A stretch of 64,000 nucleotides of DNA from Clostridia bacterium (GTDB lineage Bacteria; Bacillota; Clostridia; Oscillospirales; CAG-272), in contig JAFQEC010000020.1 of assembly GCA_017415805.1 (NCBI GenBank), positions 1 to 64,000 on the forward strand. The letters run 5' to 3'. The translations under genes and the position numbers were made by a program. The notes beneath the pieces were generated by a model. That model saw only the letters and a list, made by a program, of their open reading frames with translations. It had not been told where the DNA came from and ran no database searches. This document shows positions 40 to 39,331 of the stretch, one piece after another (positions within the stretch are counted from its first letter, which is position 1; every line of letters begins with the position of its first letter).

Positions 40-240
40 ATGAATGAATTGATGCTATTTGCTCCGCAAATGAGGCATCATGAATTGGCTTCGCCATGAT
101 TTGCTCGCGGAATTGCCACGCAATTCGTCGCTCACATGAATGGAATTGCAACCAATGTGCCGCAAGGCACAATTCATACCGCAGGCAATTCACGAAAGCG
201 CAGCTTTCAATTCACGCAACCGCGAGGTTGCAATTCATTG
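40..240. repeat. Symmetric array of short hairpins (array 1)
   Basis: A run of short hairpins joined by a fixed linker. In the left half the linker reads ATGAAT (about 44, 80, a variant at 96, and 136); in the right half it reads AATTCA (171, 187, 209, 232), so the linker flips strand at the centre. Between linkers are small stems whose arms differ from unit to unit but still pair: TTTGC/GCAAA, TGGC/GCCA, GAATTGC/GCAATTC, TGCC/GGCA, GAAAGC/GCTTTC, GCAACC/GGTTGC. Loops are tcc or ttc on the left and gca-like on the right. The same plan occurs at 25889-26059. Bases 1-39 before it are T-rich with no visible gene; 240-266 form one more hairpin (GCGTGTT/AACACGC). No protein-coding signal is seen. 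Confidence 0.75.
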
Positions 241-2883: not shown

Positions 2884-3269
2884 TGCAGATCACGGCGATC
2901 GCGGGGGCGGCGCTTCTGGCCGTTATCCTGATCCTTACCCTTCGCGAGCTGCGCGCGAGCCTCGCGCTCCCTGCGCGTCTTGCGGCCACGCTCATGCTCG
3001 TGGGGGCGGCGCTCGCGCTGCATGCACCGATCCTTTTGCGCGTGCGCGAGCTCTTTTCGCTGGCGGGCGAGCCCGAGCACGCCACGGTGATCCTGCGCGC
3101 CACGGGGATCGCGCTGATCTGCGAGCTTGCCGCCTCGTTCTGCCGCGATCTTGGCGAGGGCACGGTGGCCGAGGGTGTGCTGCTGTTTGGAAAGCTTGAA
3201 ATTTTGGTGCTGTGTCTGCCCTTGATGGACGCAGTGCTGGACGTAGCAAAGGAGTTGTTGCAATTTTGA
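2883..3269 (+). CDS. spoIIIAD: Stage III sporulation protein AD
   Basis: A 128-residue, almost wholly hydrophobic protein with four likely membrane helices, matching SpoIIIAD (about 133 residues in Bacillus). The start overlaps the spoIIIAC stop (TGATG) and the stop overlaps the spoIIIAE start, so translation is coupled through this part of the operon. Confidence 0.94.
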   Translation: MQITAIAGAALLAVILILTLRELRASLALPARLAATLMLVGAALALHAPILLRVRELFSLAGEPEHATVILRATGIALICELAASFCRDLGEGTVAEGVLLFGKLEILVLCLPLMDAVLDVAKELLQF

Positions 3270-18338: not shown

Positions 18339-18393
18339 AAATTCGAATTTCCGCAGATGCGGTCGGAATCGCACGAAACCGACCGTTGAGGTG

Positions 18394-18468
18394 GCTCCGG
18401 AGAAGCTCATTTGAGTGCCGAAGGTGCAAGGCGCGATGCGCCGAATCTCTCAGGCAAAAGGACGGAGC
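18394..18468 (+). promoter_or_regulatory. Glycine riboswitch (single aptamer)
   Basis: Shows the glycine-aptamer core: GCCGAAGGTGCAAG, a GGCGC/GCGCC hairpin, then AATCTCTCAGGCAAAAGGAC, enclosed by a GCTCCG/CGGAGC closing helix (about 18394-18399 and 18463-18468). It lies in the leader of an AGCS amino-acid/cation symporter gene, a common glycine-riboswitch target. Only one aptamer is seen; the leader segment 18361-18385 can form its own GGTCGG/CCGACC hairpin. Confidence 0.92.
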
Positions 18469-18500
18469 AGACAATTCCCTTTTTGTATATTGTCTGTTTT
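18468..18500 (+). terminator. Terminator-like expression platform of the glycine riboswitch
   Basis: CAGACAAT (18468-18475) pairs with ATTGTCTG (18489-18496), followed by TTTT. The 5' arm starts at the last base of the aptamer closing helix, so ligand binding could influence folding. Single-aptamer switches on symporter genes are often OFF switches; the direction here is inferred. Confidence 0.6.
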
Positions 18501-25888: not shown

Positions 25889-26059
25889 ATGATGCATCGC
25901 CTACGGCGATATGATGTTTTTCGCCTCGCTCAAAATGATGTTGCTCCCGTTGGTCGCAATGATGCGATGTTTGCCCCAAAATGTGGCGAAGCCACACATC
26001 ATTAGGCGTAGCCGTCATCATTGGCGAAGCCAACATCATTTGCCGAAGGCAAACATCAT
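25889..26059. repeat. Symmetric array of short hairpins (array 2)
   Basis: Four ATGATG linkers (25889, 25911, 25935, 25959) followed by four CATCAT linkers (25997, 26016, 26034, 26054): the same 4+4 inverted plan as at 40-240 but with another linker word. Between them are short stems with different but matching arms: TCGCC/GGCGA, GTGGC/GCCAC, GGC/GCC, TTGGC/GCCAA, TTTGCC/GGCAAA, with loops tac on the left and gta or gaa on the right. It lies between the tRNA-Arg terminator and the tRNA-Glu promoter; no gene is seen in 25772-26061. Confidence 0.8.
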
Positions 26060-26061
26060 TC

Positions 26062-26101
26062 AAAAAACGCACTTTTGTCGGTAGACAAAAGTGCGTTTTT
26101 T
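26062..26101 (-). terminator. Terminator of tRNA-Arg
   Basis: Perfect 18-base stem (26062-26079 with 26084-26101) beginning and ending in A/T runs. Confidence 0.9.
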
Positions 26102-26103
26102 GT

Positions 26104-39198: not shown

Positions 39199-39243
39199 AA
39201 AAAACAGCAGGGCGCACTTATGCCTTGCAGAATAAGTGCGCCC
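39199..39243 (-). terminator. Riboswitch-controlled terminator before purE
   Basis: Minus strand GGGCGCACTTAT (39232-39243) pairs perfectly with ATAAGTGCGCCC (39210-39221), with T6 at 39199-39204. Its 5' arm begins with GGGC, the 3' end of the ZTP aptamer core, so ligand-bound aptamer and terminator exclude each other. Expected action: ZTP bound means read-through. Confidence 0.88.
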
Positions 39244-39331
39244 AGACGGTCGGCAGGGAGCATCGCTCCCCTTCCAAGGCTCTGTTCCACTGTGTTTGAC
39301 ACATGATCCGTCAGTTGCAAAGCCCGTATTC
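39240..39331 (-). promoter_or_regulatory. ZTP (pfl) riboswitch
   Basis: Minus-strand leader with the pfl hallmarks: AACTGACGG near the 5' side, a GGGAGC/GCTCCC hairpin, and the conserved CCGACCGTCTGGGC, whose CCGTC pairs with the early GACGG. It lies in the 5' leader of purE, the expected gene type. ZTP/ZMP rises when 10-formyl-THF is short; the operon includes fhs, purN and purH. Confidence 0.88.

Follow-up and report, generated by a model that had tools for sequence, protein, structure and literature searches.

The hairpin array near the start of the analysed stretch of DNA (64,000 nucleotides, here called the window) forms the 3' module of a mobile element that is non-coding and about 370-440 nt long. 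We consider it probable, at roughly two chances in three (0.68), that this element is non-autonomous and MITE-like and that it inserts into the hairpin loops of host intrinsic terminators. The first-pass annotation had described an array at 40-240 and missed that it is one module of a terminator-targeting mobile element; the window shows only the 3' part of this element because contig C14 begins at window position 1, inside the element.

The array and its mobile frame

The sequence confirms a hairpin array at 44-238, in which four ATGAATT-type linkers are followed by four AATTCAT-type linkers with hairpins in between. The coordinates proposed earlier hold, and the "4+4" plan that came with them is right for the linkers but not for the hairpins, which number 3+4. 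The features at this end of the window are as follows, where ORF names outside the family-search results are readings of the sequence.

1-39, + strand: internal terminator-like hairpin, 3' half only, TTCTTGCTCT followed by a T-rich tail, the 5' half and the 5' domain falling before the contig start; complete in L003 and L059-L070
44-142, + strand: left half-array with linkers ATGAATT (44-50), ATGAATT (80-86), ATGATTT (96-102) and ATGAATG (136-142) and hairpins at 51-79, 87-95 and about 103-133; from sequence, folding and homologues
143-153, + strand: 5' strand of the closing helix, GAATTGCAACC, which pairs with 226-236 in competition with hairpin 216-231; from complementarity and sister-class covariation
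157-238, + strand: right half-array with hairpins at 157-170, 178-186, 194-208 and 216-231, each followed by an AATTCAT-type linker, namely AATTCAT (171-177), AATTCAC (187-193), AATTCAC (209-215) and AATTCAT (232-238); from sequence and homologues
239-267, + strand: terminal hairpin, the right inverted end of the element, TGCGTGTTCTCC-GTTAA-GGATAACACGCA; from a 27-mer search and inverse homology to the left end TTCTTARCGGAGAA
268-287, + strand: right arm and T-tract of the presumed host terminator of a pdxK-like gene, the left arm lying outside the contig
289-1131, - strand: pdxK-like kinase gene (named from its sequence), 3' end abutting the insertion; ORF, with orthologues in 20 of 21 genus genomes

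Region 40-267 folds far better than dinucleotide shuffles (z = -5.9 as DNA, -5.3 as + strand RNA and -4.1 as - strand RNA; 0 of 200 shuffles folded as well), and in the minimum-energy fold some left-half linkers pair with right-half linkers while the hairpins form side arms. The earlier description of a large dyad built of small hairpins is supported. The inversion of the linkers midway, with hairpins in the place of spacers and no identical direct repeats separated by unrelated spacers, rules out a CRISPR array, as had been argued from the sequence; that the array is not an ordinary terminator is likewise borne out. A linker-hairpin-linker detector returned three clusters in the window and none in five shuffles with permuted dinucleotide blocks, and its cluster at 3181-3239 looks like a chance hit.

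Complete copies of the element (L003, L059-L070) share one frame, which consists of a left end (GGGTGATG-TTCTTAGCGGAGAA), a structured non-coding 5' domain that ends near GGGCTAAGCCCAAACCC, a terminator-like hairpin with a T-rich tail, the array, and a terminal hairpin (GCGTGTTCTCCGTTAAGGATAACACGC). The 5' region of L003 had been considered as the end of a protein gene, and this was rejected when the alignment revealed the structured 5' domain and no long ORF. The terminal hairpin is homologous to the left end in inverse orientation (CTTARCGGAGAA), most clearly in the own-genome copies at contigs C25 and C29. MAG contigs end in these repeats; where both ends can be placed, the length is uniform at about 370-440 nt. 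The element is thus short, without an ORF, bounded by inverted ends and present in dispersed copies, as are MITEs.

The terminal-hairpin 27-mer (at most 2 mismatches) was found in 12 of 21 genus genomes, and its backward control gave zero. In the element's own genome, contig C28 starts with a 99% copy, C25 has a 70% copy in its interior, and near-identical 5' ends of the element occur where C21, C25 and C29 end; a recent multi-copy repeat that breaks assembly would look like this. Homologues of the array also occur in congeners and in other members of the order, so that it is no solitary occurrence. The 5'-domain pattern matched at least 116 stretches in named genomes; among the 80 matches listed, all are Clostridia MAGs, mostly from ruminant gut according to their titles. 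This pattern had no match in IMG/VR. A phage or plasmid origin was rejected, as searches of phages and plasmids found no match and two patterns had no hit in IMG/VR.

The same inverted ends also bound other elements that carry cargo genes, none of them an intact transposase, and for this reason the ends rather than the array seem to define the mobile unit. These ORF-bearing elements (ends TTCTTARCGGAGAA) are L306 (1470-2470), L299, L303, L305, L314 and L320, with NUDIX-like, XRE-like, DUF559-like and broken RAYT reading frames; the element in L306 is about 940 bp long, carries the NUDIX-like ORF and is located inside a terminator. Since several lie inside host terminators, such carriers are possible terminator-loop gene cassettes.

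Probable insertion into terminator loops

Outside the frame, the host flanks usually form inverted arms that differ at each locus, with an A-tract on the left (38 of 47 copies) and a T-tract on the right (43 of 47). An inverted flank match of at least 9 was present in 33 of 47 copies compared with 7.5% of mis-paired flank controls (Mann-Whitney p 5e-20). In most copies the flanks are therefore the two arms of a host intrinsic terminator and the element sits in the terminator loop, in either orientation relative to the terminator; clear host arms are absent in about a third of the copies. Junction rules and any target duplication were assessed by visual inspection.

The pdxK terminator illustrates this. 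Of the 20 genus loci downstream of pdxK, 17 have no framed element; most of these 17 have an ordinary terminator there, and one of them (L292) is cut by a contig end. In the window the element's 3' end faces pdxK, in G009 (L286) the element has the opposite orientation, and G002 (L281) holds a different array class at the same terminator. At L285, also downstream of pdxK, a solo CTCCGTTAAGGAG-type hairpin occupies the terminator loop and is perhaps a remnant of the element; at L020 a solo terminal hairpin lies within the loop of another terminator.

Against our reading stand bare arrays that adjoin terminators without the frame (window 25889-26060 and loci in G045), and hence the array is not tied to this element. 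The window copy of this kind, a second inverted hairpin array with the linker ATGATG(T)/(A)CATCAT, lies between two tRNA genes, directly beside a terminator-like hairpin at 26063-26102, with a fold z of -5.1 as DNA. In G045, a genome of another family, bare half-arrays and arrays with reversed half order stand beside terminators (L072 700-800, 1107-1230 and 2694-2880; L110; L111).

Neither an autonomous copy nor a matching transposase was found in 21 genus genomes, from which IS1182 (PF13751), IS110 (PF01548) and DDE_Tnp_1 (PF01609) transposases are absent. We propose that a trans-acting enzyme with a preference for hairpin targets would cut and join the inverted terminal hairpins, and that the element's own terminator-like hairpin could compensate for the host terminator that it splits. 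The palindromic array, when single-stranded or extruded, may fold into a ladder of hairpins held by helices between linkers and inverted linkers, and the linker word would stay constant either for being read by a trans factor or for having to pair with any partner linker.

Linker classes and maintained pairing

At least seven linker classes occur in the same frame (ATGAATT, T/GCGATAT, GATGAAAT, GTGAAGTT, GTGATGTT, GTGATATT and GTTATGA), so that array classes are interchangeable within it, and all full or nearly full arrays, with both halves present, have the inverted layout. Within each class the linkers changed together. For example, homology extends over the length of the GTGAAGTT and GTGATGTT arrays (80% consensus identity), and one and the same position distinguishes essentially all of their linkers, in both halves. 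Because pairing between linkers and inverted linkers alone would need only pairwise matches, the fact that all linkers are identical points to a common reader or to pairing of any linker with any other.

The two classes also show that pairing has been maintained. In their right halves (17 sequences), 98.8% of hairpin cells pair, and the hairpins contain 27 double-sided changes compared with 9.5 in shuffles (0 of 500 had as many), a covariation that rests on two sister clades and few independent events. The closing helix, formed by the array centre with the 3' arm of the last hairpin and competing with that hairpin, is complementary in 74 of 87 arrays and in 2 of 522 cross-class controls, and between the sister classes it has 15 double-sided changes compared with 5.8 in shuffles (0 of 500). 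The ATGAATT class alone has diverged too little and covaries weakly, with 2 double-sided changes, a number reached in 34 of 500 shuffles. The "co-varying stems" of the first-pass annotation had been read from differences between units, which are not covariation; in homologous loci, real covariation is clearly above chance between the two sister classes and weak within the class of the window. As a point against our reading, the maintenance of pairing implies that the array has some role other than that of a passenger.

The selection on structure suggested earlier accordingly stands for pairing, as the compensating changes indicate, but there is no sign that it is specific to RNA. A first count of 151 G-T and 31 A-C cells was biased, since G-U pairs had been permitted in the fold; once they were excluded from the choice of structure, 37 G-T and 27 A-C mismatches remained (p 0.36 on events), and because of this strand-neutral result the claim of an RNA asymmetry was dropped. 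Judged from sequence comparison, the data neither support nor exclude RNA-specific selection on the array.

Alternative explanations and known systems

The family is linked to a described RNA motif. Gut-1 (RF01706) scores 52-71 bits, above its gathering cut-off of 50, on half-arrays of the GATGAAAT (or GTGAAAT-type) class, several of them in framed elements. The window had no match to Gut-1 at the gathering cut-off, and a window-class homologue (L060, minus strand) scored 29.5 bits, below the cut-off; the window array nevertheless shares with Gut-1 its tandem hairpins joined by a constant linker. On these model scores, Gut-1 now appears to be a half-array fragment of this family and the window array an unlisted sister. 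The earlier statement that no named element has this plan thus holds for the window class, which is unlisted in Rfam, and fails for the family, as the half-array of a sister class appears as Gut-1. Elsewhere in the window, Rfam models recognised above cut-off a glycine riboswitch aptamer (18387-18475) and a ZMP-ZTP riboswitch (39233-39328).

The array might accordingly be a structured non-coding RNA related to Gut-1, made from the minus or plus strand, with the mobile frame as its mere vehicle and the linkers as unpaired words that bind protein or RNA. The Gut-1 scores agree with this, as do the compensatory changes in hairpins and closing helix, the stable loops (e.g. CTTCGG, GCAA) found in many units, and the listing of Gut-1, known there from human gut metagenomes alone, as a probable non-coding RNA (Weinberg 2010; PMC2864571). 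We nonetheless think it unlikely, given that the strand-neutral test found no G-U excess over A-C, that the plan is identical on both strands, that the one element region scanned contains no promoter-like site, and that the array is immediately preceded by a terminator-like hairpin.

Still less probable is a REP/BIME-type element, in which a RAYT (Y1 transposase) would mobilise arrays that act as nucleoid or gyrase sites between convergent genes. Inverted linker-plus-hairpin units do resemble the head-plus-palindrome units of REPINs, several congeners have RAYT-like genes, and broken RAYT pieces lie inside two same-ended elements (L305, L320). The element's own genome, however, has no match to the Y1 transposase (PF01797) despite its recent copies, and the intact RAYT genes of the genus carry GTAG-type palindromes instead of these arrays and lack matching inverted ends. 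RAYT was rejected as the mobiliser, given that the arrays do not adjoin RAYT genes. In L098 (about 1800-2310) and L095-L097, GTAGGG-type palindromes lie in or next to RAYT-like genes, at some sites inside the reading frame. An immobile cluster of ordinary bidirectional terminators between convergent genes, with gene conversion of terminators making the copies similar, is scarcely credible: all examined contexts are intergenic and beside terminators and the stems are terminator-like, but host arms differ per copy, frame boundaries are sharp, both orientations and different classes occur at one pdxK terminator, and 17 congeners lack the framed element there. Dispersed copies with unrelated flanks largely exclude it.

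If the insertion reading is correct, a gene-less element with a clear target preference would offer a way to study transposition that targets hairpins, a process known so far mainly from IS1272. The repeat family described here is common in uncultured gut Clostridia and splits transcription terminators, and the orphan Gut-1 motif, listed from environmental sequences only in the accessible part of its source, gains an identity and hosts. It is unusual in evolution that a short word changes in step across all units of an array, and this pattern makes the partner, whether protein or pairing rule, findable. Whether all this amounts to a new class of mobile element, with an interchangeable and strand-symmetric hairpin-ladder body, a linker-specific trans factor whose word changed with every linker, terminator hairpins as landing sites, and Gut-1 as a fragment of one branch, is a tentative proposal that we regard as somewhat short of an even bet.

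Among known systems, the Gut-1 RNA has a consensus of hairpins joined by a constant UGAAAU-type linker, and its bona fide matches are half-arrays of the framed element; its Rfam model covers a half-array of one linker class only, and mobility and terminator context are not described in the accessible part of its source (PMC2864571). With REP/REPIN-BIME systems and their RAYTs the element shares intergenic inverted hairpin units and a constant flanking word, and it differs in its many different stems per array, its at least seven interchangeable linker classes, its internal frame, and the GTAG-type palindromes that the RAYTs of the genus carry. Group IIC introns target terminator structures, insert beside the stem, and encode a reverse transcriptase and a ribozyme core; the terminator structure as target is common to both, whereas neither a reverse transcriptase nor a ribozyme core was seen in the present element. 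In the literature on terminator-loop MITEs or hairpin arrays, only the work on IS1272 was found relevant. IS1272 and TnSha1 (IS1182 family) show no sequence preference when they insert into terminator hairpins, which they do in both orientations and repeatedly at one terminator (PMC4923244), and insertion into (terminator) hairpins in both orientations is also what we find here; they are, however, full transposons with a transposase, whereas the present element has no ORF and an unrelated body, and its genus has no PF13751 protein. Bacterial MITEs resemble the element in being short and gene-less, with inverted ends, dispersed copies and presumed mobilisation in trans, and what sets it apart from them is its highly ordered palindromic body and its terminator-loop target.
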